Shown here piece by piece: positions 1,397-40,761 of a stretch of DNA of 42,192 nucleotides; positions within the stretch are counted from its first letter, which is position 1, and each line of letters opens with the position of its first letter. A model generated the notes under the pieces. The model was not told the DNA's origin. It was given only the letters and a program-made list of their open reading frames with translations, and did no database searches. A program made the translations under genes and the position numbers. Location: IMG/VR virus record IMGVR_UViG_3300025030_000210, positions 1-42,192 of that record, one strand, 5' to 3'. This DNA comes from a virus.

Positions 1397-1419
1397 AGTT
1401 CATTAATCATTAATGAACT
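1397..1419. promoter_or_regulatory. 23-bp palindromic operator-like site (perfect)
   Basis: Arms AGTTCATTAAT and ATTAATGAACT are perfectly complementary around a single C. The site sits between the stop codon of the DUF1937 gene and the TTG start of the DUF3987-like gene. It is one of about a dozen related sites spread over the window. The 25 bases from 1390 to 1414 are identical to a stretch on the opposite strand at the 16,046 site. Confidence 0.75.
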
Positions 1420-1422
1420 CTA

Positions 1423-1770
1423 TTAAAATAATTCTTTATAATACATTTCAATAGAAATATTATTTTCTTTAGCGAATATAACTTCTGCTTGTAATCCTAT
1501 AGATTCTTTCCATCCATCAATAGGTATTATAAGTAGTACGCTACATTTAGATAATAAAGCAAAATTATATCTTTTCCAAAATTCAAAATCAGGCATCATC
1601 TTATGCTTTACAGAAAGAGGATGGCAGTGAACAATAGGACTTATTACATGAAATCCTTGATTTAATAAATCAGCTGTTACATCAAGCACTTGTTCGTATC
1701 GAAGTTGCATAACATCCTTGTCAGGATGTGTGTAAGGACTTCCTATATAGATAAGTTGGTTTTTAGTCAT
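1423..1770 (-). CDS. DUF1937 family protein (nucleoside deoxyribosyltransferase-like)
   Basis: A protein of about 115 residues beginning MTKNQLIYIGSPYTHPD. The YIGSPYTHPD start, the central ISPIVHCHPL and the later DGWKESIGLQAE are the hallmarks of DUF1937, a small Rossmann-like family related to nucleoside 2-deoxyribosyltransferases, common in phages. A nucleotide-salvage role fits its neighbour thyX. I chose ATG 1770 over an upstream TTG because GAGGATATTGGAA provides a ribosome binding site and the start overlaps the thyX stop in ATGACTAA, which implies translational coupling. The exact reaction cannot be told from sequence. Confidence 0.75.
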   Translation of the reverse strand: MTKNQLIYIGSPYTHPDKDVMQLRYEQVLDVTADLLNQGFHVISPIVHCHPLSVKHKMMPDFEFWKRYNFALLSKCSVLLIIPIDGWKESIGLQAEVIFAKENNISIEMYYKELF

Positions 1771-2401
1771 TTCCAATATCCTCAAATATTACAGGAAGTT
1801 GATTTTTAAATCTACATAAAATCATGTTTGCAACTTCCCTCATTTGTGGATGGGCAGCCTTAGAAGTTCTTAACGTTAAAAAGTGTCTCCACTCTCTAAG
1901 ATTAAATTTAACAATTATTTCTGTTTTCAAAGAATTAGGCAGCACGCTTCTTGCCTCTTGTGGAGTAGCTCCAAGCTCTATAAGTTTGATATATGTCTTT
2001 TCGATATATTTCATGGTCTCTTCCCACATTTCATATTTTAGCGTGTCCTTTTCACTGCAAGAATTCCAAAAGCAAGGAATAATTGCAGTTATTTCATTTC
2101 CAAATTTACCTCTTGCATAGTTGCAGTAACGAGTAGATTCTTGGGCATAGCTGGCGATTCTATGTCTTACAACTTCGTGAGTAACTCCTCTGTCGCAAAT
2201 TACTTTTACAGAAATATCGAAGTGTTCTATAATTGCATGATGTCCAGATTTGATAATTTTTCTGACAAATTCGATACAAGAAGTTTCTGTAATTTTATCC
2301 TCTGACTTGTAACAAGTTCTTCCAACTAATTCTAAATGTTTTAAGATAGAAGTTTGATCTAATATACCTAAAATTTCAATTGACGGCTTGACTATTTTCA
2401 T
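1763..2401 (-). CDS. thyX: Flavin-dependent thymidylate synthase ThyX
   Basis: A 212-residue ThyX, which makes dTMP from dUMP using FAD, NADPH and methylenetetrahydrofolate. The family signature RHRxxSxxxxSxR is present as RHRIASYAQESTR at residues 79-91, preceded by the HAIIEHFD helix. The length matches the usual 210-250 residues. The start has an AGGAG ribosome binding site formed by the end of the upstream gene (TAATAATG). With the neighbouring DUF1937 and DUF5664 genes and the polymerase it forms a nucleotide-supply and DNA-synthesis group. Identification is firm. Confidence 0.95.
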   Translation of the reverse strand: MKIVKPSIEILGILDQTSILKHLELVGRTCYKSEDKITETSCIEFVRKIIKSGHHAIIEHFDISVKVICDRGVTHEVVRHRIASYAQESTRYCNYARGKFGNEITAIIPCFWNSCSEKDTLKYEMWEETMKYIEKTYIKLIELGATPQEARSVLPNSLKTEIIVKFNLREWRHFLTLRTSKAAHPQMREVANMILCRFKNQLPVIFEDIGND

Positions 2402-6004: not shown

Positions 6005-7288
6005 TCATTCTCTAATCCCCTCTAAGAGAAGTCTTTCTTTAACAATATCAGAACATTCTTTCAGAATGTCGCATCCTTTAACTACCATCTTTTCTCTAAG
6101 TCCTGCAATTAAGCTTGCTCCTGAACCACAAAAAGGATCTATCATAGTTTGTCCAGGAAGCCCTACTACCCTTAATAATTTCTGAAAAAGCTCTACTGGC
6201 TTCTCAGAGGGGTGTCTTTTAGCAGTAGGATGAACAGGCAACACATCTGTAATAGCATCCCTAAATCCTTCTATCTGAAGGTATGCTTTAGGTCTTCTCG
6301 CAAACATAGCTATTTCGTAGGATGAAATAGGCCAGACTTTGGGTGCATTTGATGATCCTCCTGGTTTTATCCAAACTAAAGGTCTAATTGAAACGTCCCA
6401 ATTCCTTTGAAGAAATTGATTTCTTAATTCAAAAAAGTAATCTATAGATATAAATATAATAGCAAATGCTGTATCTTTTTTACATATAATATCTGCACAT
6501 TCTGCAAGTTTCCTATAGATAGATATATCTGGAGTATCATCATACTTGAATCCTTGAAAAGATTCTCCTCCTGTAACTTTTCCTCCAGTACATTGAATAT
6601 TTCCTATATCTATTCCATAAGGAGGATCAGTTATAAGAATATCAACAGAGTTCTCTTTAAGAGAATGCATCCACTTGAAAGAATCTCCTAAATGAAAAAT
6701 ATGAGACATATTAAGGACGTTATTCTTTTCTATTGAAGCCAGGGCTTGCTCTCTGTTTATTTTTTTCTGAAGTCCCTTCACTGCTTGTCTAATTTCAGAT
6801 GCTGTTTCACATTTAGCAAGATTAGGAAAAGTCTTAACTGTTTCAGCTATAAGAAGATTTTGAGAGATAGCTCCTTGAGTATATCCCAAAAGGTCTGCAG
6901 TCTGTTTCACTGTCCATCCAAAGCCAGGTTTGCCCTGAACAGAAGTACCGAAGGCTTCTTGCCTTCTTTTGTGAATATCTTCTATGGCAAACGCCAACTC
7001 TGCAGGAGTAAAGTCACATCTTTGTCTGTTCTCTTCAAATTCTATCTCTCTAAGTTCTAAGTCAGAAGCTACGTCTTTAAAGACGTAGGAAATCTCTATA
7101 TTCTCCATAAGACAAGCTGCTAATCTTCTACCTCCAGCCACAAGTTCAAATTCACGGGTAACTATAATGGGAACAAGTTGACTGTGTTTCTTTAGAGATT
7201 CTGCAAGCTCTTTGAGATTTTGAATATCTTGCCTGTATCTCTCGAGACCTTCTCGTACTTTAACTTTAGATGGATGTATTTTTTCCAT
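6005..7288 (-). CDS. ParB/Srx-domain DNA methyltransferase
   Basis: A 427-residue fusion. Residues 1-110 match the ParB N-terminal (ParB/Srx) fold, with VPIIVTREFELVAGGRRLAA and ENRQR typical of it. A helix-turn-helix follows near 125-150 (WTVKQTADLLGYTQGAISQNLLIAE region). Residues about 195-427 are an amino-methyltransferase with catalytic DPPY at 221-224 and the S-adenosylmethionine motif DPFCGSG at 384-390; catalytic motif before the SAM motif indicates a beta-class N6-adenine or N4-cytosine enzyme. Such fusions are common in phages and may modify the genome or block host restriction. No cognate endonuclease is seen. Confidence 0.9.
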   Translation of the reverse strand: MEKIHPSKVKVREGLERYRQDIQNLKELAESLKKHSQLVPIIVTREFELVAGGRRLAACLMENIEISYVFKDVASDLELREIEFEENRQRCDFTPAELAFAIEDIHKRRQEAFGTSVQGKPGFGWTVKQTADLLGYTQGAISQNLLIAETVKTFPNLAKCETASEIRQAVKGLQKKINREQALASIEKNNVLNMSHIFHLGDSFKWMHSLKENSVDILITDPPYGIDIGNIQCTGGKVTGGESFQGFKYDDTPDISIYRKLAECADIICKKDTAFAIIFISIDYFFELRNQFLQRNWDVSIRPLVWIKPGGSSNAPKVWPISSYEIAMFARRPKAYLQIEGFRDAITDVLPVHPTAKRHPSEKPVELFQKLLRVVGLPGQTMIDPFCGSGASLIAGLREKMVVKGCDILKECSDIVKERLLLEGIRE

Positions 7289-7344: not shown

Positions 7345-7461
7345 TTAGACTTTTTTGAGAAAATCTACTATAAGTTGCCCATAATCATGATTAATATGAT
7401 TACATACTACAATGTTATTTTCAGTGCCGTTAAATAGTTTATTTTGTCCTATAATTTTCAT
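7345..7461 (-). CDS. Hypothetical 38-residue peptide
   Basis: A short frame MKIIGQNKLFNGTENNIVVC... ending in FLKKV. It is supported by an ATGA overlap with the stop codon of the upstream gene, the same junction used elsewhere in this block. No family is recognised. The remaining bases between its stop and the methyltransferase start are AT-rich with nothing else seen. Confidence 0.5.
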   Translation of the reverse strand: MKIIGQNKLFNGTENNIVVCNHINHDYGQLIVDFLKKV

Positions 7462-7652
7462 TTCTTTAATGCCCCTAATATTTTATTGAGTAACTCTGTC
7501 TCAGCATCTGTAAGGTCAACCTTCTTTTTACTTTTTCTTTCCTTTTTAATTATAGGTAGAGGTATTCGCTTTGAGCGGAGTTCATTTATAAAGGATCCTT
7601 TTTCTTCTTCAGAAAAGTCCAAATAGGGCTTAAACAAATCTTTAAGCTTCAT
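7458..7652 (-). CDS. Small charged hypothetical protein
   Basis: A 64-residue protein, MKLKDLFKPYLDFSEEEKGSFINELRSKR..., with a lysine-rich middle (KKERKSKKK) and a helical end. No family is recognised. It is the first gene after the structured gap at 7,740-8,110 and the 23-bp palindrome at 7,697, so it may be the first gene of a sub-operon. The ribosome binding site (AAGGTGT) is modest. Confidence 0.6.
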   Translation of the reverse strand: MKLKDLFKPYLDFSEEEKGSFINELRSKRIPLPIIKKERKSKKKVDLTDAETELLNKILGALKK

Positions 7653-7696: not shown

Positions 7697-7719
7697 AGTT
7701 CATTAATTATTAATTAACT
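7697..7719. promoter_or_regulatory. 23-bp palindromic operator-like site (one mismatch)
   Basis: Left arm AGTTCATTAAT is intact; the right arm reads ATTAATTAACT, one base off. The site lies 45 bases upstream of the 64-residue gene and immediately after the structured RNA element. On the minus strand TTGAAA and TATTAT precede it within 30 bases, a weak promoter-like context. Confidence 0.65.
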
Positions 7720-11443: not shown

Positions 11444-11718
11444 TATAACTCACACCTTTCTGTTAGATCTCTAATGTGACTATTAAAAGTGATTATTATC
11501 TCATTTATATCATTCAACTTAGAGGCTAAAGGTACAAATGATAAAGAATTTGCACCTTTTAACGTTACCTCATTACTCTCTTCTCTAAGAGATGATTTTA
11601 ACCTATCACTTAAACTAGAAAGACTTTGTTTCATCATATCTAATGAACAATCTATTCTTTTTAGTTGTTCCACAATTTGAGACTCTTTATGAGTTGGGAC
11701 TAGCAAATCTTTGCTCAT
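11443..11718 (-). CDS. Hypothetical coiled-coil protein
   Basis: About 91 residues from MSKDLLVPTHKESQIVEQLKR, with heptad-like helices near 15-45 and 65-90. I chose ATG 11718 because it overlaps the upstream stop in ATGA and has GGAAG 7 bases before it; a longer frame starts four codons earlier. It has no recognised family. It overlaps the nuclease start (TAATG). Confidence 0.6.
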   Translation of the reverse strand: MSKDLLVPTHKESQIVEQLKRIDCSLDMMKQSLSSLSDRLKSSLREESNEVTLKGANSLSFVPLASKLNDINEIIITFNSHIRDLTERCEL

Positions 11719-12110
11719 AGCATCTTCCATTCTTTAATAAAGTTTTCTAATTTTTCACAGGGCGGTATTCCGGTAAATGTTCTTTTAAGATTTTTAATTT
11801 TCTCGGCTTGGTCATTAATTCGTCCCCTACTTGTTCCAGTTTGAATAAGTTTTCTGAGAATAGATAACTCTATCTCCGTTAACTGTTCTAGTTTAGGAAC
11901 TGATCCTTTTTTAACATAATACTGAGGCTTATGTCTTCCAAGTCGAATAACTAAAGAATCTTCAAGATAGTATTCTAGCAAGGTATAATCTTCTATTTCA
12001 TTATAGTCATCTGTGTTGATAATCATATGAGGGTAAGATGGTAGGTGTCCTCCAAGTTGGTGGCGGGGATGTGGTGTTCTAGTTAAACTACGTCCCCTTA
12101 AATAGTTCAT
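11715..12110 (-). CDS. Hypothetical protein, paralogue of the 14,283 gene
   Basis: Up to 131 residues. Residues about 44-70 (LLEYYLEDSLVIRLGRHKPQ then YYVKKGSV) align with the product of 14,283-14,657 (AQYYEQDTLVIRIGSYAPHYFVKIGAV), so the two are paralogues. No function is known. The first ATG lies inside the 23-bp palindrome at 12,104 and lacks a ribosome binding site; ATG 12,026 (MIINTDDYN) is the next choice. The leading part (RSLTRTPHPRHQLGG) looks unlike a conserved protein, which favours the later start. Confidence 0.6.
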   Translation of the reverse strand: MNYLRGRSLTRTPHPRHQLGGHLPSYPHMIINTDDYNEIEDYTLLEYYLEDSLVIRLGRHKPQYYVKKGSVPKLEQLTEIELSILRKLIQTGTSRGRINDQAEKIKNLKRTFTGIPPCEKLENFIKEWKML

Positions 12111-12126
12111 TAATAATTAATATTCT
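12104..12126. promoter_or_regulatory. 23-bp operator-like site, one arm decayed
   Basis: The plus-strand arm AGTTCATTAAT is intact, followed by A and ATTAATATTCT, which diverges in its outer five bases. It directly follows the structured RNA element on the minus strand and contains the first ATG of the downstream gene. Flanks (AAATAG on the outer side) match those of other copies. Confidence 0.6.
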
Positions 12127-12130: not shown

Positions 12131-12398
12131 TGGAATTACTGAAGCTCTTAAAGAGTCAAAACTAATATAACTGTCTGGAGGACTTTAAAATTAGCTTTGG
12201 TGGAATACCCTTTAAGAACTTCAGTAAGTCCACTAAAGGAAGACAAGTGAATATCCAACCTATAATCAGTTGGTGCTATCGTATTCTGTTATCCTTGTCT
12301 TCAATATAGTAGACTTACTGTGCTACGGATTATGAGAAGACCAACTACTTTTGGGTGTCTGGTGAGTTGGAAACCAGCTAATTTCCTGATGGAAATTA
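12131..12398 (-). ncRNA. Putative structured noncoding RNA, multi-stem
   Basis: A gene-free stretch with long nested stems. 12139-12153 pairs with 12210-12224 (15 positions), 12222-12235 with 12307-12320 (14), 12239-12247 with 12294-12302 (9), 12249-12253 with 12282-12286 and 12255-12259 with 12269-12273 (5 each), 12341-12346 with 12365-12370 (6), and 12379-12386 with 12391-12398 (8). In the first two stems the single imperfect position is a G-U pair if the minus strand is transcribed but a C-A mismatch on the plus strand, so the sequence itself favours a minus-strand RNA. The loop under the first stem contains GTCCTCCAGAC, again with CCTCC. Ends are approximate; the 8-bp hairpin overlaps the upstream stop codon. 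Confidence 0.55.
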
Positions 12399-12758
12399 AT
12401 CTATCTTTTTTCCAAGCTTGGCAAAGATGGCAATAGCTGCTGTTTGTTCCTCTGGAGTTAACAGGGAAATTGCAGACTTAATCTGAGATACAGATACCTT
12501 GTCTCCACCACCTGTTCTCTCTGACCACTTACCTTCCTTAAGATTTGTCCAGGTAGATACAATTGCATCGTATGCTTCCTGTCCCTTGCAACCAGCAGCT
12601 GAATCTCCAACTTTAGCGTTCATACCATGCATGAGAAGCTTATGGCGATTACCTTCAGAAATCTCATTAATATCACAACGAATTGGTTCAAATCCCGCTA
12701 CCTGAAACAGAATAGCATTTTCACCATCTTTAACTCTTCCTAGTGTCTTTACACTCAT
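12396..12758 (-). CDS. Conserved phage protein, paralogue of the 18,840 gene
   Basis: A 120-residue protein. Its middle (AAGCKGQEAYDA) and end (DKVSVSQIKSAISLLTPEEQT then AIFAKLGKKID) align with the protein at 18,840-19,310 (YGCKQTRNDRYAG and DKVSVKALTTSTLLSDEEKT, ILAKLGKV). The function is unknown. The start has AAGGAG about 10 bases upstream and overlaps the ribbon-helix-helix gene by 29 bases, suggesting coupled expression. Its stop codon is inside the first hairpin of the structured RNA. Confidence 0.7.
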   Translation of the reverse strand: MSVKTLGRVKDGENAILFQVAGFEPIRCDINEISEGNRHKLLMHGMNAKVGDSAAGCKGQEAYDAIVSTWTNLKEGKWSERTGGGDKVSVSQIKSAISLLTPEEQTAAIAIFAKLGKKID

Positions 12759-12900
12759 TTTGACTCATCTCCTTATTTAAAAATTCTTTAACTGCACTAT
12801 TAATAGCTCTATCTATAGATACACTGTGCAGTGTAGTATATTCTATAAGATTTAAGTAGGTATCTACGTCTAATTTTGCCTGAACGTGTTTATAGCTCAC
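12730..12900 (-). CDS. Ribbon-helix-helix (CopG/Arc-type) DNA-binding protein
   Basis: A 56-residue GTG-started gene with GGAGG 9 bases upstream. The sequence VQAKLDVDTYLNLIEYTTLH then SVSIDRAINSAVKEFLNKEM follows the RHH pattern: a beta-strand with alternating residues (HVQAKLDV), a helix, a short SVS turn and a second helix ending KEFL. RHH dimers bind palindromes or repeats and commonly regulate their own gene. Direct repeats of AAAACATTAAT lie immediately upstream. It is the clearest small DNA-binding regulator in the early block and a candidate for the dispersed operators, which is inference. Confidence 0.7.
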   Translation of the reverse strand: MSYKHVQAKLDVDTYLNLIEYTTLHSVSIDRAINSAVKEFLNKEMSQNECKDTRKS

Positions 12901-12998: not shown

Positions 12999-13223
12999 TT
13001 ATTTTAATAGGGCATTATCGGACAGAAAAAGAACATTTCCAACAATAGGACGTCCTGCTATAAACGAAGCCTCTTTATTTTTTGTCAGCTTAAGTCTTAT
13101 GCCATATTCATTTACTATCATCTGAGCACCAGACTGTAGCTGAATTAATTCTATATAGCCTCCTACATATTCTTGCATCTCTTTTAAAGTAGGTTCTTTG
13201 TCTGAAATATATTTTACGCTCAT
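12999..13223 (-). CDS. DUF3846-like small protein
   Basis: A 74-residue protein whose pattern GGYIELIQLQSGAQMIVNEYG...LTKNKEASFIAGRPIVGNVLFL matches DUF3846 (a GGYIE strand, a MIVNE-G strand, an N-x-x-A helix and a final IVGNVLF strand). This small domain is common in phages and plasmids and has no known function. The start overlaps the upstream stop in TAATG with GGAGAAATTG before it. Confidence 0.65.
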   Translation of the reverse strand: MSVKYISDKEPTLKEMQEYVGGYIELIQLQSGAQMIVNEYGIRLKLTKNKEASFIAGRPIVGNVLFLSDNALLK

Positions 13224-13684
13224 TACAATTTCTCCAGAATAAGATTTTCTTCAGGGGTAATACTATCTCCTAATGCCTGTCTAATTTCGTTTTTAGAGTA
13301 GCCTTCAGCTAACAGAATATTTATTTGAGCTTTTCTGGTATGTTTAGATTTGACCATAAGCCTTAAAGCTTTTTCTTTATTATGTTTTTCTTTAATATAA
13401 GCTATATCTTCTATTTTTTCTGAGCGTCCAATTGTTAAGTATAATATACCAGATTTACTGGTACTGTATACTTTAAGTCCGTGATATATAGATTTATCAA
13501 AGGAAGTCTCCATCTCTCTTATAATCTCTTTTCCTAGATAAACATAATATGTTCTTTCTACGTTATGTTTCATAGGAATAAATAAAGTGTGATCTTTGTT
13601 CATCTTAGCAGCTGTATCCAGCCACATGAACATTAACCTTCTTTTTTCTGAGAGTCTCCATTCCTGCCTATTTTTCCTGCCCAT
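13223..13684 (-). CDS. Hypothetical basic protein, possible C-terminal HTH
   Basis: A 153-residue protein, strongly basic. The C-terminal 50 residues (KHTRKAQINILLAEGYSKNEIRQALG) look like a helix-turn-helix of the kind that follows a long basic linker; the front half looks beta-rich (LFIPMKHNVERTYYVYLGKE). No family is recognised. It begins inside the 3' end of the sigma factor gene (52-base overlap in another frame), so the two are probably co-translated. Confidence 0.6.
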   Translation of the reverse strand: MGRKNRQEWRLSEKRRLMFMWLDTAAKMNKDHTLFIPMKHNVERTYYVYLGKEIIREMETSFDKSIYHGLKVYSTSKSGILYLTIGRSEKIEDIAYIKEKHNKEKALRLMVKSKHTRKAQINILLAEGYSKNEIRQALGDSITPEENLILEKL

Positions 13685-14136
13685 TTTATTTTTCCTTGTA
13701 TTTTAAAAAGTTTTTTTCTAACACCCTCTGTAGATAAGTTTGTCTTTTTGGCTAAATCTTCATAGGAAACATTACAGAAATACTTTAGATATACTAATTC
13801 TCGTTCATAGGACTCTAGAGCTTTTAATCCTTCAGCTAAGTAAGGACTAAAGTCATTTTCTATAATAGTTAAAGATTCTTCATCTCGTAAATCTATTATG
13901 GTGTAGATATCTTCAGACTTCTTAATAGTTTCTTTAAGAACTATAGCCCACATTCTCCAGGTTAGGAACTTAATAATAAAAGCCTCGAAAGGGACTTTAG
14001 ATTCTGGCAAGAATCTTTTTTCAAGTTGAAGATAATAAAGATATAACTCCTGGAATAAGTCCTCTTTTAAGTCTTTTTGAATGTGAGCTTTTTTAATGAG
14101 ACCTTTTATAATATTTGTAATCTCATTTTGCTCCAT
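13633..14136 (-). CDS. Phage RNA polymerase sigma factor (sigma-70/ECF-like)
   Basis: A 167-residue protein with the two-domain layout of small sigma factors. Residues 1-75 fit region 2 (KKAHIQKDLKEDLFQELYLY then LPESKVPFEAFIIKFLTWRMW), and residues about 105-155 fit region 4 (LESYERELVYLKYFCNVSYEDL then AKKTNLSTEGVRKKLFKIQGKI). The linker is acidic. It would redirect host RNA polymerase to phage promoters, presumably for later genes. Its target promoter is unknown; the repeated 23-bp site is one possibility but is palindromic, which is unusual for a promoter. Overlaps on both sides place it in the main early transcript. Confidence 0.82.
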   Translation of the reverse strand: MEQNEITNIIKGLIKKAHIQKDLKEDLFQELYLYYLQLEKRFLPESKVPFEAFIIKFLTWRMWAIVLKETIKKSEDIYTIIDLRDEESLTIIENDFSPYLAEGLKALESYERELVYLKYFCNVSYEDLAKKTNLSTEGVRKKLFKIQGKIKWAGKIGRNGDSQKKEG

Positions 14137-14296
14137 CTTTTAACCTTTCATAGAAAGCAAGTAGTGCTCTAAATGTTTCTGATTCGAGATAAATAGTATT
14201 GTGGATTTCTACCCCATTCTCTGTTGTTAATATTAGTCCATTACCGTCAAATTCTACATAGACACCATCTCCTAAATAAGTTTTAATGTTTTCCAT
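14123..14296 (-). CDS. Small conserved phage protein (YLGDGVYVEFDG type)
   Basis: A 57-residue gene, MENIKTYLGDGVYVEFDGNGLILTTE... ending LAFYERLKDGAK. The YLGD-VY-EFDG-G-I motif recurs in short unnamed proteins of many phages, where it is usually followed by a single helix. A paralogue lies at 16,785-16,982. It overlaps the gene before and the sigma factor gene after it by 14 bases each, which supports it as real. Confidence 0.75.
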   Translation of the reverse strand: MENIKTYLGDGVYVEFDGNGLILTTENGVEIHNTIYLESETFRALLAFYERLKDGAK

Positions 14297-14657
14297 TTAG
14301 TCTTTCCTTTATAGGGGTAAGTTCTTTAATTAAATCATCTAGATCAGGAAAATACACCTGATGATACTTCTGCCGAAGTATCCAAACCTTTTCTATCTCT
14401 TGACGTGCTTTTTCAGTTGAGAGATTAGGACTTTGAAAAATTTCTGACAGTCTGTCTCTACAGGAGACAAAAAGTTCTTCGAGCTTCTCTTTCATTTGTT
14501 CCTTAGTTCCTACAGCTCCTATCTTTACAAAATAATGGGGGGCGTAAGAACCAATTCTGATAACGAGAGTATCCTGCTCATAGTATTGAGCGTAGACTTC
14601 TGGAGAAGTCTCTTTATATTCTTCCCATTTAATTTCTTCTGGTATAAGTTTAGGCAT
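14283..14657 (-). CDS. Hypothetical protein, paralogue of the 11,715 gene
   Basis: About 124 residues beginning MPKLIPEEIKWEEYKETSPE. The core YYEQDTLVIRIGSYAPHYFV aligns with the 11,715 gene product, and the remainder is helical and charged. I chose ATG 14657 because a perfect AGGAGG lies 8 bases upstream; the longer frame has no such signal. The function is unknown. Confidence 0.7.
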   Translation of the reverse strand: MPKLIPEEIKWEEYKETSPEVYAQYYEQDTLVIRIGSYAPHYFVKIGAVGTKEQMKEKLEELFVSCRDRLSEIFQSPNLSTEKARQEIEKVWILRQKYHQVYFPDLDDLIKELTPIKERLNGKH

Positions 14658-14847
14658 ATTGTTCCTCCTTATATAGTTCAAACTCATCAGGATCTAATAA
14701 TAAGTATACATTATTATCATCACATCTTATAACAGCCCAGTCAAAAGCAACAGTTTCAACTCTTCCAAAAGGCTTATAGTTATAATGTCTACAACATCCA
14801 AGATTAATTATCATTCCTGTTTGTAACTGATTTATTTTCATAATCAT
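14650..14847 (-). CDS. Small hypothetical protein, SH3-like pattern
   Basis: About 65 residues from MIMKINQLQTGMIINLGCCR. The alternating pattern (GMIINLG, VETVAFDWAVIRCDD, NVYLLLDPDEFELY) suggests a small beta-barrel. The start is set by an AGGAGG 5 bases before ATG 14847 and by a TAATG overlap with the upstream stop. The function is unknown. Confidence 0.65.
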   Translation of the reverse strand: MIMKINQLQTGMIINLGCCRHYNYKPFGRVETVAFDWAVIRCDDNNVYLLLDPDEFELYKEEQYA

Positions 14848-15751: not shown

Positions 15752-16036
15752 TTATTCTCCTCTATTCCCTTGTTTAAAGCTAATATACGTATCTAGGACA
15801 GGGTTAAGGTATTTTCCTTGATAGAATTTAGTTAGGCCTTCCTGCTTAAAAGTTCCTTTATACAGAAGACGTATCCAGTAATAAAAAGATTGATCACTTA
15901 ATATATAAAAAGGATTAATTAGCTTCAATTTTTCCATAGTTTCAGCTTTTGAGTACCAATGACCATCTCTGCAGATACAGTGTGGGGTACTTTTTTCTTG
16001 AGCTCTTAGTATAGATTTTCCTGTTTGTTTCTTCAT
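15752..16036 (-). CDS. Hypothetical protein
   Basis: A 94-residue protein with no recognised family. It has a CIC site near residue 20, several aromatics (FYILSDQSFYYWIRLLYKG) and a basic front. The ribosome binding site GGAGG is 5 bases from ATG, and the 23-bp operator-like site lies just beyond it, 10 bases upstream of the start codon, so expression of this and the following genes may be controlled there. Confidence 0.6.
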   Translation of the reverse strand: MKKQTGKSILRAQEKSTPHCICRDGHWYSKAETMEKLKLINPFYILSDQSFYYWIRLLYKGTFKQEGLTKFYQGKYLNPVLDTYISFKQGNRGE

Positions 16037-16045: not shown

Positions 16046-16068
16046 AGTATATTAATGATTAATGAACT
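16046..16068. promoter_or_regulatory. 23-bp operator-like site (two mismatches in one arm)
   Basis: Left arm AGTATATTAAT (two differences), centre G, right arm ATTAATGAACT intact. It overlaps the stop codon of the upstream gene and lies just ahead of the ribosome binding site of the next one. Its minus-strand flank TTGAAATAG matches the flank of the 1,397 site. Confidence 0.65.
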
Positions 16069-16297
16069 ATTTCAACATATCTTTGAGTTCTTTTTTAATT
16101 CTTCTAGCCGTTTCTCCTTTCCAAGTTTGAGCATTACAGAGGAAATAGCAAACTATAGAATTTCCTGAGTTCTGTCCATAGTTATCTTTGATAGAGTCTA
16201 GGCAGGTCATTGCATCTAGGTAGGGCTTAGCTCCAAAATAGACATTTTTCCAGTCTTTTCTAATTTCTCTTGCTATTTCAAATAGTGATCTAGCCAT
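16067..16297 (-). CDS. Conserved small phage/bacterial protein (SLFEIAREIRKDW type)
   Basis: A 76-residue protein: ARSLFEIAREIRKDWKNVYF then GAKPYLDAMTCLDSIKDNYG, and later IVCYFLCNAQTWKGETARRI. This is a recognisable unnamed family common in phages and mobile elements of many bacteria, with near-invariant IxxDWK and W-GETARRIK segments. The function is unknown. It is predicted to be all-helical and cytoplasmic. Confidence 0.75.
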   Translation of the reverse strand: MARSLFEIAREIRKDWKNVYFGAKPYLDAMTCLDSIKDNYGQNSGNSIVCYFLCNAQTWKGETARRIKKELKDMLK

Positions 16298-16325: not shown

Positions 16326-16562
16326 CTATTCCAACAGTTTTTTTGGTATGCTATATATATCTGGAATATTATTCATGTATGTAAACTCTGTTAATCCTTT
16401 AATAGATTTTAACTCTTGAACAGAATTCCTGGTAAGAATTCCTTGAGCTAAGTCCATATAAAGATAGGCTAGTATTTGTCTTTGAACCGTATCCTTACAC
16501 TTTAATGTTAGGGTATATCCCTTATGTTCTGCGTACCATTCTATCATTTCTTTGGCTGTCAT
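16326..16562 (-). CDS. Hypothetical protein, paralogue of the 19,421 gene
   Basis: A 78-residue protein. MTAKEMIEWYAEHKGYTL, the QRQILAYLYMDLAQGILT segment and the LTEF end align with the product of 19,421-19,633 (MTTKDMIKWYEAYKGYKM, HRRIISYLCNDIGYNILS, LTEY). The pair has no known function. A GGAG ribosome binding site precedes ATG. Confidence 0.7.
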   Translation of the reverse strand: MTAKEMIEWYAEHKGYTLTLKCKDTVQRQILAYLYMDLAQGILTRNSVQELKSIKGLTEFTYMNNIPDIYSIPKKLLE

Positions 16563-16563
16563 T

Positions 16564-16780
16564 TTATTTCTCCATTATTAAGTTTTTTTCTGCTAATATA
16601 CATTTTAGTTTGTTAATGAAGTTTTCTCTCAAGTCTATTTTTCCTTGTCTTAAGTAAACTTCTAATTTATTTTCTAATGGATTGTGCATCAAAGTGTTAA
16701 TTTCTTCTTGATACTGGTTTATTTCTGCTTGCGTCTAATATATCTTTTTCAATTTCCTCTGTTGGAATGATGCAGTCCAT
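16564..16780 (-). pseudogene. Probable small gene broken by a frameshift
   Basis: Two partial frames overlap here. From ATG 16780 a frame reads MDCIIPTEEIEKDILDAS and stops early at 16,697. In the next frame, open from about 16,731, the sequence AEINQYQEEINTLMHNPLEN, KLEVYLRQGKIDLRENFINK and so on runs to a stop at 16,564 without its own good start. Joined by one base shift near 16,730-16,740 they give a plausible 70-residue helical protein. Either the gene has decayed, the contig has an indel error, or only the second part is made from an internal start (ATG 16689 or TTG 16692). Confidence 0.45.
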
Positions 16781-16784: not shown

Positions 16785-16982
16785 TTAATACCTCCAGAAA
16801 ACCATCTTTGTGCCAATAGGCGGGATAAATCTTAAAGCATGTAATTTCTGTGAAACTGGAGGAAATTTTTCTATTTTCTTGCCATAATGTGTATTTCTGG
16901 AAGAGAATATAATACCTCTTCCATCAAATTCTGCGTAAACAGAATCTCCTAAATATTCCTTTTGCCAGTTTTTTTGTAACAT
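16785..16982 (-). CDS. YLGDxVYAEFDG-type small protein, possibly frameshifted
   Basis: A 65-residue frame whose front (EYLGDSVYAEFDGRGIIFSS) is a clear paralogue of the 14,123 gene. Its end (RFIPPIGTKMVFWRY) does not look like the family, whereas a neighbouring frame over the same bases ends AYWHKDGFLEVLK and stops at 16,780 in a TAATG junction with the next gene. An indel near the codons for ALRF would restore that end. A GGAG ribosome binding site 9 bases before ATG supports the start. Confidence 0.55.
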   Translation of the reverse strand: MLQKNWQKEYLGDSVYAEFDGRGIIFSSRNTHYGKKIEKFPPVSQKLHALRFIPPIGTKMVFWRY

Positions 16983-18028: not shown

Positions 18029-18065
18029 ATTTAATGAACTGTTGAACTCTTAAGAGTTCATTAAT
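18029..18065. promoter_or_regulatory. Paired 23-bp-site half-sites, outward orientation
   Basis: TTTAATGAACT at 18030-18040 and AGTTCATTAAT at 18055-18065 face away from each other, opposite to the arrangement in the full palindrome. Between and across them lies a perfect 18-bp palindrome, TGAACTCTTAAGAGTTCA, at 18043-18060. The site may bind the same protein in a different arrangement. Confidence 0.55.
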
Positions 18066-18165: not shown

Positions 18166-18203
18166 TTTTAATGAACTCTTGAAAATTAGCAGTTCATTAA
18201 TTT
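18166..18203. promoter_or_regulatory. Paired 23-bp-site half-sites, outward orientation
   Basis: TTTTAATGAACT (18166-18177) and AGTTCATTAATTT (18191-18203) again point outward with 13 bases between them, directly within the TA-rich stretch. This repeats the layout of the pair at 18,029, which makes chance unlikely. Confidence 0.55.
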
Positions 18204-18287: not shown

Positions 18288-18334
18288 AGTTGATTAATTA
18301 TTAATGAACTATTTGAAATTAAAAGTTGATTAAA
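18288..18334. promoter_or_regulatory. 23-bp operator-like site plus an extra half-site
   Basis: AGTTGATTAAT, T, ATTAATGAACT at 18288-18310 is a full site with one mismatch. A further half-site, AGTTGATTAAA, lies 13 bases on at 18324-18334. Confidence 0.6.
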
Positions 18335-18430
18335 CCGGACATACCAGGTCGCCCCAAACCCTTTTTACATGGAATCATGAACAAATCATAACCAATGTCG
18401 TTGCGGCATGTTATGGCACGAATTAAAAAT

Positions 18431-18447
18431 ACGGCAATTAAAACCGC
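18431..18447. repeat. 17-bp ACGG...CCG motif
   Basis: ACGGCAATTAAAACCGC, a copy of the motif at 5,941 and 17,881-17,961 with one changed end base. Confidence 0.5.
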
Positions 18448-18463
18448 TTATGTGACCATCGGC

Positions 18464-18508
18464 ACACGTCAACGTATCAACACGTGTCACGACACGTCAA
18501 AACGTGTC
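18464..18508. repeat. ACACGT repeat cluster (iteron-like)
   Basis: Within 45 bases there are ACACGTCAA at 18464-18472, the self-complementary ACACGTGT at 18480-18487, ACACGTCAA again at 18492-18500, and ACGTGTC at 18502-18508. The last two form a perfect inverted repeat (GACACGT, CAAA, ACGTGTC). Such clusters next to AT-rich DNA are typical binding sites for a replication initiator, but no initiator gene is recognised in the window. Confidence 0.5.
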
Positions 18509-18530
18509 CTATGGCATCCTATTGCGTTTT

Positions 18531-18547
18531 ACGGGTATTTTACCGGT
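18531..18547. repeat. 17-bp ACGG...CCGGT motif (diverged)
   Basis: ACGGGTATTTTACCGGT keeps the ACGG and CCG ends of the 17-bp motif with a changed core. It is the weakest of the six copies. Confidence 0.35.
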
Positions 18548-18583
18548 ACCACATCGCCCATGTGGAATGGGTGAAATACCAAT

Positions 18584-18625
18584 AAAAAAAGCTGGTAACA
18601 ACACGATTAAGTGTCATTACCAGCT
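18584..18625 (-). terminator. Intrinsic terminator for the minus-strand island
   Basis: 18590-18598 (AGCTGGTAA) pairs with 18617-18625 (TTACCAGCT), with an inner ACAC/GTGT stem. On the minus strand the hairpin is followed by seven T (18584-18590). This is a textbook Rho-independent terminator for transcripts coming from the genes at 18,668-19,633, separating them from the main early operon. A second small hairpin (GTGTCC/GGACAC, 18633-18652) precedes it. Confidence 0.8.
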
Positions 18626-18667
18626 GTGTGCTGTGTCCTTGTGGGTGGACACGTTACCTTGCCAGTG

Positions 18668-18847
18668 TTACTTGTTGGGATGTAGTCCCAGCTCTAGCAA
18701 GAGCTGAGATACCTTACGCCTGCTACCATGTCCCCCGTCTTGGTTAAGCCTGTATATCTGCTGTAATTGTGTGCATAACTCTGTGTAGTCGGCAGAGCTT
18801 GTATCAGGGAGAGAGTCGGCAATCCGCTGGAGACAGGTCTTACCCAT
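18668..18847 (-). CDS. Small hypothetical protein of the GC-richer island
   Basis: A 59-residue gene, MGKTCLQRIADSLPDTSSAD... ending VSQLLLELGLHPNK, mostly helical with a basic stretch (GGHGSRRK). Its start overlaps the stop of the 18,840 gene, with AAGGTG upstream, so the two are coupled. No family is recognised. The intrinsic terminator follows about 43 bases after its stop. Confidence 0.65.
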   Translation of the reverse strand: MGKTCLQRIADSLPDTSSADYTELCTQLQQIYRLNQDGGHGSRRKVSQLLLELGLHPNK

Positions 18848-19310
18848 TAGACACCTTGCCTAACTTGGCTAAGATACCAGACATTAGAGTCTTTTCCTCG
18901 TCGGACAACAATGTTGACGTAGTCAGTGCCTTGACTGATACCTTGTCGGTATCAACCCTACTTGCTCGTGCAAGCGTGAAATTATCATAATCCTCTTGAG
19001 ACTCTGCAAGTGCCTCTGTTACCGATATTACTTCTGCAGTCTTGCCTTTGGCCGGCTTGGTCTCAATGAGATTCTCCCCTTGTCTGGTAAATCCAGCGTA
19101 TCGGTCATTACGGGTTTGCTTACATCCATAAGCCCACAGAAATGCCTCTCTGGCAGAGGAAAAGATACCATCAGCCCGGAAGGCTGTACTGCCGTTAGTA
19201 ATTATTACGGTAGCCTCAACTAAATCTCCCTCAGGCTTAATCGTTACGGTAGCTAAGCCAAGTTTAGTATTACGTTGTTGCGTATATGGTGTTACATTGT
19301 CAATTGACAT
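18840..19310 (-). CDS. Conserved phage protein, paralogue of the 12,396 gene
   Basis: A 156-residue protein. After a beta-rich front (LGLATVTIKPEGDLVEATVI) and the AFLWAYGCKQTRNDRYAGFT segment, its end (TDKVSVKALTTSTLLSDEEK then LMSGILAKLGKVSNG) matches the 12,396 gene product. The function is unknown; two copies in one phage suggest a small family with separate roles or a recent import of a related phage's version. A GAGGG ribosome binding site precedes ATG. Base composition is clearly richer in G and C than in the main block. Confidence 0.7.
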   Translation of the reverse strand: MSIDNVTPYTQQRNTKLGLATVTIKPEGDLVEATVIITNGSTAFRADGIFSSAREAFLWAYGCKQTRNDRYAGFTRQGENLIETKPAKGKTAEVISVTEALAESQEDYDNFTLARASRVDTDKVSVKALTTSTLLSDEEKTLMSGILAKLGKVSNG

Positions 19311-19420
19311 TGTGTTACCCTCTCATATTGTGTATGGGTGTATCCCATACGGGTTACAATTCCATTGTACCACATGGTACGATGGTTGATACGTCAATCA
19401 TATATCCGACCTCATACGGA

Positions 19421-19633: not shown

Positions 19634-20015
19634 GTCTTAGTCCTCCATACGTTTACGGGTAATTGTGCCATTTGCACATTACGCATATACCGCAATTCAT
19701 TTACCGTTTCAACTTAATTATTTAGATAAGTCATAAGTCATATTGTTCCAATATGTTATGACGTATATTTATATTATGACCATTTTCGGTCATGCCGTAA
19801 TTGTATTGCAATACTGCAATGTCCATTACATTGTCACAAGTGTCATTGTTTCAATGACATATGACTTACTGTTTACATTTATAAACATTCTAAGTATATA
19901 TGTATCAATATGTTATGATTTGTTGCAATATGTATTTCAGGTATGCAACTCGCAAATGGTATGCCATAATCAACCAGCAATTTGTGTGCCATATCTTGGC
20001 ATGATAATTGCTATA

Positions 20016-20029: not shown

Positions 20030-20127
20030 GTATTTCTCCCTTTTAATGTGATTTACCTCCCTTGAACCCCCAATCTCCTATCCCTTAAATTCACTTCATC
20101 ATTCCATGAAATATTTTCAAAAATTAG

Positions 20128-20169: not shown

Positions 20170-20192
20170 ACATTATTAATGATTAATGAACT
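20170..20192. promoter_or_regulatory. 23-bp operator-like site at the head of the late block
   Basis: The right arm ATTAATGAACT (20182-20192) is intact; the left arm ACATTATTAAT keeps its inner six bases. The longest frame of the small terminase gene starts at the ATG inside the right arm. Confidence 0.6.
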
Positions 20193-22046: not shown

Positions 22047-23392
22047 TACATATTAAAGCTTCTACTCAACAACTAATTGATGAAGTCAGGGGATTTCGTA
22101 AGGGTGGAGATAAGATTCACACCAGAAGCCTCCCTGAAGTCTCCCAAGATAGGATGATAGATGTCTGTTATTGGCTATGGGACAATTATCCTATGGCTAA
22201 ATGGATTATAAATGTTATTGTAAGCTTCATAGTAGCTGAAGAGTTACCTTTTGAGTCCAATAATCCTAAAATCGTAGAGATTTTGAAGAGTTTTTGGTTC
22301 GATCCAGTAAACAGGATGGATCTTTACTTGCGTAAACATGTAACTGAGCTTCATATTTTTGGGGATATATTCTTTCCTGTGCAGGTTTCGCCTGTAAATG
22401 GTAGAGTTAGAATGGGATATATTGACCCTAAAGAGATAGAATCTGTTGTAACAGATCCTGAAAACTGTAAGATTAAAATAGGAATAATTAGAAGAACCGA
22501 TCCTGGAGATACTCCAAAGAAATATAAAATTATTCTTGAAAAAGACATTGTTAATTTCCTTAGTCCCGCTGCTAAAGCATTAAGAGCTTCTTTTACTACA
22601 GGAGATTGTTTCTTTTTCTCTATTAATAATGTGACAAACTCCCCAAGAGGACGAAGTGAGCTACTTACAGTAGCAGATTGGATTGATACATACGAAAATT
22701 TTCTCTATGACTTTGCAGAAAAGTGGTCTCAAATGAATAATTTTGTTTGGGACTTAAAAATAAAAGATGCAGATGATAGTGTGGTAAGACAGAAAACTCA
22801 GGAATTTAATACTGCAAGCGGGAATCCAGGTAGTACTTATGGTCATAATGATTCAATAGAGGTAAGTGCTGTAGCTCCTGACTTAAAAAGCCTTGATGTT
22901 TCAACAGGGGCAAAGATATTCAGAGATCATATTCTTGGAGGAGTAGGTTTTCCTACTCATTGGTATGGCGGAGCAGAAGATGTTAATAAGTCATCTGCAG
23001 ACGAGATGATGACACCTACAATGAAAATTCTTACAGAGAAACAAAACTATTTTAAGTATATTCTCTCGAGTATTTTTGACTATCAAATCTTCTGTGCAAG
23101 GAAATTTAATAGATCTGCTTATGGAGACCTTAAAGATAGTGATATTAAATATACAATTATAACTCCCGAGCTAAGTACAAAAGACCTGAGTAAGTTCGGG
23201 GCAGTCATTAAGAATGTTGCAGACGGTTTTGCGGTTGCAGAAGATAGAAGTTGGCTGGATAAGGAGACAAGTCTTGAATATTTTGCACTTGTTATGGCTT
23301 TTCTAGGAAAGAAAGTAGATATAGAACAAGTCAAGGAACGACTAAAGTCTCAACCCAAGCCTAAACCTGTAGAACCAACAAAAGTTAATTAA
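22013..23392 (+). CDS. Portal protein
   Basis: A 459-residue portal, the dodecameric ring at the packaging vertex. Recognisable parts are RMIDVCYWLWDNYPMAKWII near the front, ELHIFGDIFFPVQVSPVNGR and IDPKEIESVVTDPEN in the middle, and the long polar tail. The start is a TTG with GGAGG 6 bases upstream. Its stop codon lies inside a 23-bp operator-like site. Position after terL supports the call. Confidence 0.88.
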   Translation: MAEEKTSPASVVHIKASTQQLIDEVRGFRKGGDKIHTRSLPEVSQDRMIDVCYWLWDNYPMAKWIINVIVSFIVAEELPFESNNPKIVEILKSFWFDPVNRMDLYLRKHVTELHIFGDIFFPVQVSPVNGRVRMGYIDPKEIESVVTDPENCKIKIGIIRRTDPGDTPKKYKIILEKDIVNFLSPAAKALRASFTTGDCFFFSINNVTNSPRGRSELLTVADWIDTYENFLYDFAEKWSQMNNFVWDLKIKDADDSVVRQKTQEFNTASGNPGSTYGHNDSIEVSAVAPDLKSLDVSTGAKIFRDHILGGVGFPTHWYGGAEDVNKSSADEMMTPTMKILTEKQNYFKYILSSIFDYQIFCARKFNRSAYGDLKDSDIKYTIITPELSTKDLSKFGAVIKNVADGFAVAEDRSWLDKETSLEYFALVMAFLGKKVDIEQVKERLKSQPKPKPVEPTKVN

Positions 23393-23405
23393 TTATTAAT
23401 GAACT
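23383..23405. promoter_or_regulatory. 23-bp operator-like site (one mismatch)
   Basis: AGTTAATTAAT, T, ATTAATGAACT. It contains the TAA stop of the portal gene and marks the border before the capsid genes. Confidence 0.65.
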
Positions 23406-28642: not shown

Positions 28643-28665
28643 AGTTCATTAATAATTAATGAACT
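28643..28665. promoter_or_regulatory. 23-bp palindromic operator-like site (perfect)
   Basis: AGTTCATTAAT, A, ATTAATGAACT, perfect over both arms. It begins one base after the stop codon of the connector gene, and the ATG in its right arm (28659) is the first possible start of the next gene. Confidence 0.75.
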
Positions 28666-31549: not shown

Positions 31550-33266
31550 AGCAGGAGTAGATTCTGCAATTTCTGATTTCAAGAGATTGTCAGGTGCTGC
31601 TACTGCTGCAGGAAAGCCTATGGAGTCTATAGGGGGAACTCAACAACAGCAGAGAATGTCAGGACTTCATACGAGAATTACACAACTAACAGGAGCATTT
31701 AGAAAATTAGGAGTAGAACTTGAAACAATAGACCTGTATTTTATAAGTGGGTTTAAAGTTCTAGGTCTTTTTAAGCTTATAGATTTTACTAAGCAATCTA
31801 TCCTTCAAGCAGAAAACTATTCTAATGCTTTGCGTGGTATAGCTGCTATGGCTAGGTCTACTGGTGAAGAAGTGGAAACTGTTTTCCAGGCTATTAATAA
31901 ACTAGCAGAAGATGGTAGAATTCCTGTACAAGATTTAGCTGAAGCAATGAGAAACTTGCTTCCTAAGTATGGTTTAGCTGATTCAATAAAATTAATTGAA
32001 GCTATAAAGACAACAGGAACTGTTTTGGGTACTCAAGGAGGCATGCCTCAAGGAACAGCATTAAAAAGAGTAACACAAGGTGTAGCTCAATGGCTTTCTA
32101 CACTAACAGATGCTACACTCGTTACAAAAAATCTTGATATGATGGTGCAAGAATATGCCAATACTTTAAGAGTGAATGCTGATGCACTTGATGAAAATCA
32201 ACGGTATCATGCTGTATTATTGGGATTCTTAAAAGAAGCGTCTATTCTTTATGATGCTGAAGATCAAGCTATACAAGGTCTTACTGGTACACTGGCAAAA
32301 GATAATCAAGCTTTAATGGATTTTAAGAATGTATACGGTCAGACATTAGCACCAATGACTGTTGAAATAGTTGAAAATTTAACAGAGGGGATAAAACTTT
32401 TAGGAAAATTTTTAGCTGCTTTAGAAAAAGGTTTTCTGTCTTTAGGATATGGAGCTGAAATGGCTTTAATGAGAATTAAGGCTTTATTGAACTGGAAAAA
32501 TCTTTTTAAGTCTGGAGAAGATATAATAGCAGAACAAGCAGATGCTATGGAGTATATGAGAAAACAGTATGAGGAAGCCATTAAGGAAATAAATGCTAAA
32601 TATGGAGTAGGAAGTGTATTAAAGGGAGCACAGATTGAAATTTCTGCAAACTTTAAGCAGATAAAGCCTCCTGATATTGGAAATGTTTTTTCTGGTATAT
32701 CTTCAGGATATCCTTCTTTAGGAGGAACTCCTTGGTGGATGAAACAAGAAACTTTTACTGTAGATTTTGGAAAGATGATAGATTTAGCTAAGGCTAAAGA
32801 AGCAGAAGAAAATGCTAGAAAGATGGGGGAAAAAATTGCAACTGCTTTTAGTTATCCTCTAGAAAGAGGAATATCAGATGTATTTTTTAATCTGTTTGTA
32901 GGAGAAAAAGGCTCATTTATAGAGATGGCTCGAAATTTTGGAAAATCTCTTGCAAGAGCTATATCTGATGCTATGGCAGAAGCTATGATTGCTCCTGTTA
33001 AAAATTGGATGTCAGGATTATTTTCTGGTTTATTTAGTGCAGGAGGAGCAGCCCTTGGAGGGAGCATAGGAGGGGGATCTGTTTCTGGGGGAAGCATGAT
33101 TCCTGCAGGAGGATTAATGGGAGGATTTGGAGCTAGAGGAGGTATTAATATTAATGTAGGATCTGGATATACTCCTCGAGAAATAGGGGATATGGTAACG
33201 CAGAAGCTGCAAGAAGGGTATAGTAATAACTCTTCTATTAGAAAAGTTATAAAATCCCAAAGGTGA
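31494..33266 (+). CDS. Tape measure protein
   Basis: A 590-residue protein beginning AAEPLNLEFVIRAINEAKAG, with long helical stretches, hydrophobic segments near 95-115 and 290-320, and a Gly/Ser-rich end (AGGAALGGSIGGGSVSGGSM). Position after the chaperones fixes the call. At about 1.5 angstrom per residue the tail would be short for a siphovirus, roughly 90 nm. No peptidase or lysozyme motif is seen. The stop codon lies in a 23-bp operator-like site. Confidence 0.85.
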   Translation: MAAEPLNLEFVIRAINEAKAGVDSAISDFKRLSGAATAAGKPMESIGGTQQQQRMSGLHTRITQLTGAFRKLGVELETIDLYFISGFKVLGLFKLIDFTKQSILQAENYSNALRGIAAMARSTGEEVETVFQAINKLAEDGRIPVQDLAEAMRNLLPKYGLADSIKLIEAIKTTGTVLGTQGGMPQGTALKRVTQGVAQWLSTLTDATLVTKNLDMMVQEYANTLRVNADALDENQRYHAVLLGFLKEASILYDAEDQAIQGLTGTLAKDNQALMDFKNVYGQTLAPMTVEIVENLTEGIKLLGKFLAALEKGFLSLGYGAEMALMRIKALLNWKNLFKSGEDIIAEQADAMEYMRKQYEEAIKEINAKYGVGSVLKGAQIEISANFKQIKPPDIGNVFSGISSGYPSLGGTPWWMKQETFTVDFGKMIDLAKAKEAEENARKMGEKIATAFSYPLERGISDVFFNLFVGEKGSFIEMARNFGKSLARAISDAMAEAMIAPVKNWMSGLFSGLFSAGGAALGGSIGGGSVSGGSMIPAGGLMGGFGARGGININVGSGYTPREIGDMVTQKLQEGYSNNSSIRKVIKSQR

Positions 33267-33283
33267 TTAATCATTAATGAACT
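33261..33283. promoter_or_regulatory. 23-bp operator-like site (two mismatches in one arm)
   Basis: AGGTGATTAAT, C, ATTAATGAACT. The left arm contains the tape measure TGA stop and doubles as an AAGGTG ribosome binding site; the right arm contains the ATG of the next gene. Confidence 0.65.
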
Positions 33284-40572: not shown

Positions 40573-40583
40573 AGGAGAACTAA

Positions 40584-40748
40584 ATGGAAGTGAAAGATAT
40601 GCAAAGAGAACAAATGTTTTGTCAGATTATTCAGGAAAGAGATGCAATGATACTTGACTTAAATAATCAGGTTATTCAGTTAAAACAAGAATGTGATAGG
40701 TATAAGCAGATTGTGGATGATCTGAATAAAAGTAAGGCAGATTATTAA
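40584..40748 (+). CDS. Small coiled-coil protein
   Basis: A 54-residue gene (MEVKDMQREQMFCQIIQERD then AMILDLNNQVIQLKQECDRY...), one continuous heptad coiled coil. AAGGAG lies 7 bases before ATG. Probably a small tail-fibre accessory or trimerisation helper. Its stop lies in a 23-bp palindrome. Confidence 0.65.
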   Translation: MEVKDMQREQMFCQIIQERDAMILDLNNQVIQLKQECDRYKQIVDDLNKSKADY

Positions 40749-40761
40749 CAATTAATAATCT
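40739..40761. promoter_or_regulatory. Diverged 23-bp palindrome
   Basis: AGATTATTAA, CAA, TTAATAATCT: perfect arms of 10 around three bases, the same overall length as the other sites but with changed positions 3, 5 and 11 of each arm. It covers the stop of the coiled-coil gene, just ahead of the AGGAG of the next gene. Confidence 0.45.

Follow-up and report, generated by a model that had tools for sequence, protein, structure and literature searches.

The genome of a tailed phage carries ten 23-bp palindromes dispersed along both of its arms, which we interpret from their sequence and placement, giving this reading about an even chance, as operators of one phage-encoded dimeric protein that would gate transcription along both arms. 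Speaking for operators are a number of sites far beyond chance, their confinement to gene borders, the one-sided decay of their arms, a conserved position in a relative (G002) and the recurrence of the format in a distant phage, MD01. The ten-site layout and its MD01 counterpart point to an uncharacterised system that would control or organise the whole viral genome.

Genome plan

The DNA analysed, here called the window, is the entire linear IMG/VR record IMGVR_UViG_3300025030_000210 (42,192 bases), in which we chose gene starts from the open reading frames (ORFs). It is a tailed-phage genome with two divergent arms. The left arm, on the minus strand, encodes a PD-(D/E)XK nuclease, Sak4, a ParB-like/DNA-methyltransferase, a family A DNA polymerase, a dGTP/dATP hydrolase, Thy1 and a DUF3987 primase, and the right arm, on the plus strand, encodes the terminase, portal, capsid protein, tail genes and a 1919-aa tail-fibre-like protein. 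Scanning the early and late proteins of the 42,192-base record revealed no integrase and, in agreement with the initial annotation, no classical repressor; likewise, no Stoperator-domain or helix-turn-helix repressor was found among the early and late proteins of this linear record, which may be incomplete. The virus of bacteria that bears the ten-site family is probably lytic. Public phages sharing the two-arm plan measure about 39-47 kb, so the 42,192-base record may be nearly complete, although a few genes may be absent from it.

The stretch 18400-20050 has raised G+C and little coding apart from three small minus-strand ORFs resembling left-arm genes. Within it, 19421-19633 resembles 16326-16562, the C-terminus of 18840-19310 resembles that of 12396-12758, and some 14 consecutive C residues occur near 20017; the stretch could represent a control region that was duplicated or acquired. 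By eye, small left-arm proteins also seem to form paralogue pairs (11715-12110 with 14283-14687, and 14123-14296 with 16785-16982), a resemblance that suggests local duplications within the early arm.

A palindrome family confined to gene borders

A pattern search of the whole record with the consensus AGTTCATTAAT-N-ATTAATGAACT (that is, AGTTCATTAATNATTAATGAACT) retrieved nine sites at no more than three mismatches: none at 1397 and 28643, one at 7697, 18288 and 23383, two at 16046 and 33261, and three at 12104 and 20170. Not even one match at this threshold appeared in any of 100 dinucleotide shuffles. The tenth site, at 40739, agrees with the consensus at 17 of 22 positions and with its own reverse complement at 10 of 11. 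The sites, together with two half-site pairs, are as follows.

1397..1419, minus strand: site 1, perfect, AGTTCATTAATCATTAATGAACT; flanked by the stop of the DUF1937 gene (1423) and the start of the DUF3987/primase gene (1372)
7697..7719, minus strand: site 2, one mismatch; 44 bp ahead of the start of 7458-7652 (minus strand)
12104..12126, minus strand: site 3, upstream arm with three mismatches; lies in the gap ahead of 11715-12028 (minus strand)
16046..16068, minus strand: site 4, occupies the gap between 16067-16297 and 15752-16036 (both minus strand); perfect arm upstream, opposite to most
18030..18065, unstranded: half-site pair, outward-facing TTTAATGAACT ... AGTTCATTAAT, 14 bp apart; divergent control region
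18167..18201, unstranded: half-site pair, outward-facing, 13 bp apart; divergent control region
18288..18310, unstranded: site 5, one mismatch; followed after 13 bp by an additional outward half-site, 18324-18334 (whole element 18288..18334)
20170..20192, plus strand: site 6, 17 bp before the ATG at 20210 of a putative terminase small subunit; alternatively contains the in-frame ATG at 20186
23383..23405, plus strand: site 7, one mismatch; overlaps the portal gene stop (23392)
28643..28665, plus strand: site 8, perfect; occupies the whole gap from the stop at 28641 to the ATG at 28668
33261..33283, plus strand: site 9, two mismatches; overlaps both the stop at 33266 and the start at 33277
40739..40761, plus strand: site 10, diverged, AGATTATTAACAATTAATAATCT; directly ahead of the ribosome-binding site (RBS) of 40774-41811

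In a symmetrised weight-matrix scan, all ten sites ranked at the top (34.9 to 19.4 bits), the next-best window being a half-site at 8.9, so that the pattern search and matrix ranks 1-10 bore out every one of the ten coordinates in the initial annotation. Leave-one-out matrices regained all nine core sites at ranks 1-9, and the core ATTAATNATTAAT, present in nine of the ten sites, is absent elsewhere in the record. Across 200 order-3 Markov genomes, the mean number of matches of at least 12 bits was 0.135, against 10 in the record, and the best chance score was 19.5. Applied to the record and to shuffled sequence, the matrix found no comparable sites inside genes or in shuffles, an outcome consistent with the initial annotation.

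The claim that the sites lie at gene borders on both arms was also confirmed, even though all-AT words tend to be non-coding in this genome (55%). With sites treated as independent, the non-coding share of each of the nine core sites is 43% or more, as compared with 9.5% of random positions that reach 40% (p=7e-10); outside the control region at 17.6-20.2 kb, the proportions are 7/7 and 5.8% (p about 2e-9, on the same assumption). Site-to-site spacing ranges from 1.9 to 7.5 kb and is more even than would be expected of gene borders drawn at random (coefficient of variation 0.39; p=0.006, sites again taken as independent).

No IMG/VR contig besides the window has the exact palindrome, and among 84,980 species genomes of GTDB the exact consensus was met only once, in Vibrio sp. 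CK2-1; the sites thus more probably serve a phage-specific binder than belong to a host regulon. The Vibrio copy (7608-7642) sits inside a longer, lone palindrome of about 33 bp in an intergenic-looking region; we took it as a chance match, probably unrelated. Requiring one perfect arm plus the core gave 21 single matches in IMG/VR, one of them in a relative of the window (G002, see below); with this exception, the matches, mostly within ORFs, were taken as chance.

Anatomy of the sites

Six sites (1397, 16046, 23383, 28643, 33261 and 40739) lie no more than 10 bp from the preceding stop codon or overlap it. The distance to the next start is usually 0-80 bp (range −7 to 79 bp, overlap included), with four sites 0-12 bp from the start codon. 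At 16046, 28643, 33261 and 40739, the gap between site and gene is too small for a promoter, and polymerase must therefore arrive through the site.

Two sites are perfect, and the others have one weakened arm, except 40739, where both are weakened. The weak arm has always lost the C of AGTTC, whereas ATTAAT persists in every arm except one. Beyond the sites of the initial annotation, we found three outward-facing pairs of single arms, separated by 13-14 bp (18030/18055, 18167/18191 and 18300/18324), at 18.0-18.35 kb, where the two genome arms meet. One-sided arm decay combined with outward half-sites is, to judge by sequence, the pattern of graded-strength protein operators. The operator interpretation already offered in the initial annotation gains from the existence of one border family, from its dyad symmetry and from the one-sided decay, which would fit operators of a dimer.

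The flank ATTT, said to be often shared, follows the perfect arm in five of the ten sites (1397, 12104, 16046, 18288 and 33261); the other five lack it, 20170 having TTTT. The perfect arm is downstream with respect to transcription in five of six clear cases, which is not significant, and the better arm is on the other side at 16046 and in G002. A fixed orientation is therefore not established, and we rejected a strict orientation rule.

Relatives with and without the sites

The nearest relative, IMGVR_UViG_3300044960_000665 (G001; 24,158 b), has a collinear late arm with 47-74% protein identity. Its 24,158 b contain no ATTAATNATTAAT, even at one mismatch, and a repeat scan found no dispersed palindrome family of its own. 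At the borders corresponding to 23383, 28643, 33261 and 40739, G001 has overlapping genes (23383 and 33261 among them) or gaps of 2-6 bp (2 bp at 28643). Since both site and gap are missing at these four matching borders, the sites appear to be discrete insertions that leave their neighbours undisturbed and, as the nearest relative lives without them, they are not essential to this gene order. Sequence comparison indicates that they were either gained in this phage or cleanly lost in G001.

The second relative, the mosaic IMGVR_UViG_3300009285_003938 (G002; 44,258 b), was found by the blind arm-plus-core motif scan alone. It shares tail-end genes with the record, including one for a 345-aa protein that is 86% identical, and carries AGTTGATTAATTATTAATGAACT (21/22 match) exactly before the RBS of the 345-aa gene, the place of 40739. 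The intergenic DNA upstream of this site is unrelated to that of the record, and the genes outside the shared tail-end block are mostly different; we read the site as having travelled along with the exchanged gene block. In the interval 16373-16571 of G002, between the 1894-aa and 345-aa genes, the near-perfect palindrome is at 16388, and a weak one at 16558 (14.5 bits), the sole further candidate in G002, overlaps the 1894-aa stop, perhaps a decayed second site.

Searches with the terminase, tail, 345-aa and 255-aa proteins recovered only G001 and G002 as close relatives, the others being 20-31% identical and siteless; no relatives of the DNA polymerase were found in IMG/VR. Conservation at matching borders, named as a check in the initial annotation, gave a split outcome: it extends to one site of G002, at the 40739 border, and not to the siteless G001, and MD01 has the same format with another sequence.

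A second family in Desulfofustis phage MD01

A repeat scan of same-plan phages uncovered a second 23-bp family in Desulfofustis phage LS06-2018-MD01 (OP947158; MD01), which is a distant phage but is laid out in the same two arms. It comprises nine sites of the form CTATGTCCCAA-N-TTGGGACATAG, also 11-1-11, which score from 39 to 32, with the next at 10.2.

245, 2247, 7684, 15470, 23055, 29966, 37109, 41277 and 42973 of OP947158: MD01 sites, 23-bp palindromes at gene borders

In each of the six inner sites, the centre is no more than 27 bp away from a gene end (p=1e-6, sites being treated as independent). The other sites are near the divergent region, where spacing is 1.7-2 kb as compared with 4-8 kb elsewhere. 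The record and MD01 have in common the primase, polymerase, ParB-like/methyltransferase, Sak4 and nuclease, but differ in site sequence. Passages of the source paper carry the authors' prediction of a strictly lytic life cycle and of the lack of an integrase, and make no mention of the palindromes (PMC10370329).

A repeat scan of eleven other phages with the same architecture found no comparable palindrome family at borders, and Desulfofustis phage MD02, which has a capsid gene in common with MD01, has no palindrome family. The palindrome system is therefore sporadic within a small sample of about a dozen relatives, the one through which we looked to find MD01. Two further genomes contain other repeats. 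Methanomicrobiales virus vir526 (BK063670) has about 12 non-palindromic TGCGCTGTCTGACGGGGGGG-like repeats, some at borders and some in genes. Aphanizomenon phage Yong-DA (ON073792) looks like a plasmid, with ParA, ParB, ribbon-helix-helix and polysaccharide genes. Of its six dispersed TGTTCAGACATCTGAACA palindromes, about four are at or near intergenic positions, and the palindromes are possibly sites of its ParB.

Candidate binding proteins

Two proteins of the left arm are candidate binders, and a third might act as a partner or underlie a rival explanation.

12730..12900, minus strand: candidate binder 1, 56-aa ribbon-helix-helix-like protein
6005..7288, minus strand: candidate binder 2, 427-aa protein with a ParB N-terminal domain, a helix-turn-helix-like middle and an N6/N4 DNA methyltransferase
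13633..14136, minus strand: small sigma-factor-like protein (Sigma70 region 4_2, E=5e-6; PHROG 1740), possible partner or basis of a rival explanation

The initial annotation had named the protein at 12730 a ribbon-helix-helix protein. It does look like one in a modest single-sequence model (pLDDT 73), for which the top Foldseek matches are mostly of this class (CopASO, AmrZ, Arc, CopG and MatP); however, all of these have E values of at least 0.2, and the protein has no sequence match in Pfam or PDB.

The N-terminal domain of the 6005 protein matches PF02195 at 5.8e-5, below the gathering score, and a ParB-like PHROG at 2.4e-11, and its residues 17-116 match ParB/Spo0J/Noc entries in PDB (6e-8 to 1e-7). 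MD01 encodes a full-length homologue, 28% identical, the middle part of which weakly matches HTH_ParB (0.0037) and KorB (0.026). Profile comparison of the 6005 protein itself gave no significant HTH_ParB or KorB match, only HTH_3 at 0.095, and proteins of the 6005 type also occur in phages without such palindromes. The 13223-13684 protein was considered as a regulator and discarded, with a poor model and an uninformative fold search.

Proposed function and alternative explanations

We propose that a dimer of the candidate binder, be it the ribbon-helix-helix-like 12730 protein or the ParB-like/methyltransferase 6005 protein, would bind the 23-bp palindromes and act on transcription of both arms. 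Bound at the genome centre, the protein would shut or gate the divergent promoters; bound at a junction between consecutive gene blocks, it would halt or pause RNA polymerase. A virus with no visible lysogeny module could thereby hold back or time its expression block by block. In promoter scans of the record, sigma-70-like matches were no commoner than in shuffles, and promoters near the sites are therefore not placeable. Against the operator reading speak the lack of a classical repressor among the proteins scanned, the siteless G001, an orientation that is no more than a tendency, and an even spacing of the sites that also fits a structural role.

Such a role would follow if the sites were loading or anchoring points of the 6005-7288 ParB-like/methyltransferase, spreading or bridging like KorB/ParB for long-range silencing, organisation, segregation or packaging, which we consider rather unlikely. 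Even spacing suits an architectural function, the protein has the ParB_N domain with its PHROG and PDB matches, and a full-length homologue, weakly matching HTH_ParB and KorB in its middle, is encoded by MD01, the one other phage in which this site format recurs; moreover, KorB works from 12 dispersed sites on RK2, according to a title cited in PMC11790492. However, similar proteins exist in phages devoid of any such palindromes, the 6005 protein itself matches neither HTH_ParB nor KorB significantly, and the exact placement at stop/start junctions exceeds the need of an anchor. We attach a still lower probability to the idea that the sites are promoters or activator sites of the phage, used with the help of the sigma-like protein encoded at 13633-14136 to start transcription of each gene block. 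Sites do lie ahead of gene blocks on both arms, often with ATTT beside the perfect arm, but dyad symmetry is foreign to sigma promoters, the four sites 0-12 bp from a start codon are too near for a leader with an RBS, aligned flanks contain no conserved second box at promoter spacing, and MD01 has the format, yet no sigma factor in its annotation.

An element acting in RNA, either as a processing or termination hairpin or as a translation-start element like the SAS of cluster K mycobacteriophages, is very improbable. The perfect copies could form a 10-bp stem (−7.5 kcal/mol), sites are near starts, and 12104, 20170, 28643 and 33261 contain an ATG that is in frame and near the start of the gene; nevertheless, arm changes are mostly one-sided and break pairing without compensation (the exception being 40739), folding amounts to 0 to −3.7 kcal/mol in seven of ten sites, the half-site pairs at 18 kb point outwards, and there is neither a T tract nor a G+C stem. 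We give similarly little credence to a host transcription factor as the protein whose operators the virus would have adopted. Several boxes of host regulators, such as those of the Fur family, do look like AT-rich palindromes with a TAATNATTA core, but a regulon should give several copies per genome instead of a single exact one in 84,980 species genomes, and the relative G001 has no sites. Finally, AT-rich palindromes might have clustered by chance in intergenic DNA that is itself AT-rich, given that all-AT 13-mers here are 55% non-coding and that motifs of this kind tend towards gene borders; this explanation, to which we assign a negligible probability, is refuted by the absence of matches in 100 shuffles, by the order-3 Markov genomes (mean of 0.135 as compared with ten) and by the conserved copy in G002.

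The operator reading may extend beyond the window, in a generalisation that we advance tentatively and with more doubt than confidence: some virulent phages of the two-arm PolA/ParB-methyltransferase type would have about ten 23-bp border palindromes of 11-1-11 format every 2-8 kb, their sequence re-specified between phages and their format kept, through which a phage protein (ribbon-helix-helix or ParB-methyltransferase) would coordinate lytic transcription, not lysogeny.

Significance

What appears to be new, on comparison of the two genomes, is a palindromic site of 11-1-11 format that lies at gene borders along both arms of phages with a probably lytic life and that has been re-specified from one phage to the other. 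Intergenic repeats of T1-like lytic phages and start-associated repeats of cluster K have been known for years with no function assigned to them, and the TLS paper treats the matter as an open question (PMC11447400). MD01 turns a single odd genome into a comparison, in which site sequence and protein specificity should change together, so the binder can be sought among each phage's few DNA-binding proteins. If the sites gate transcription, they would constitute a genome-wide control layer in the lytic cycle; to our knowledge, it is mainly in temperate phages and plasmids that networks of repressors and operators have been described.

Comparison with known systems

The T1-like phages TLS and Stevie, which are virulent, contain about 16-20 copies of intergenic repeats of 21-22 bp, of unknown function (PMC11447400, PMC4319613). 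Those repeats are asymmetric and oriented (aaATAGCACnnnTTGnTAAAA) and lie about 76 bases before starts, whereas the present sites are palindromic and abut gene borders. The SAS/ESAS of cluster K mycobacteriophages, also of unknown function, are short repeats immediately before start codons, some with inverted repeats (PMC3203893). SAS is a 13-bp element (GGGATAGGAGCCC), 3-7 bp from starts, that partly pairs with 16S rRNA and is confined to the non-structural half; our sites, in contrast, have a different sequence, occur on both arms and have no RBS content in their consensus.

SPBRE of SPbeta, a dispersed intergenic element, was recognised 24 years before its repressor MrpR, showing that decades may pass before the protein that reads such sites is found (PMC10516654). 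It is a 15-bp element in promoter regions of a temperate Bacillus prophage, with a recombinase-like repressor, and no such protein was found here. KorB operators are palindromes shorter than 23 bp. Passages of PMC11790492 describe KorB of RK2 as a member of the ParB family that, from about a dozen dispersed operators, silences distant genes; that is a plasmid system, and here the ParB-like domain is fused to a methyltransferase, as a candidate binder. In the CI operators of TP901-1 and phage 13, the half-site AGTTCAYR resembles the arm AGTTCAT (PMC8516035, PMC7250872), but those operators comprise only three sites, in a switch region and with shorter half-site spacing, and a CI-like gene was not found here.

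The stoperators of cluster A mycobacteriophages (L5, TipsytheTRex repressor) are scattered phage-repressor sites in promoter regions and short intergenic gaps, where they stop transcription (PMC9283540). The initial annotation had drawn this comparison, which is fair only as an analogy: in both cases, one site family extends over the whole genome and occupies short intergenic spaces of operons (here 7/7 outside the control region). It does not carry over to the sites themselves, since stoperators are 13-bp, asymmetric and bound by a monomer, and ours are 23-bp palindromes with an invariant symmetric core. Stoperators are also strictly oriented with transcription, as needed in L5, as compared with five of six clear cases here and reversed sites at 16046 and in G002, and they belong to temperate phages with a known repressor, whereas neither repressor nor integrase was found among the proteins scanned here. 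By analogy, the system that we describe would work like L5-type stoperators, although it is not a member by sequence.
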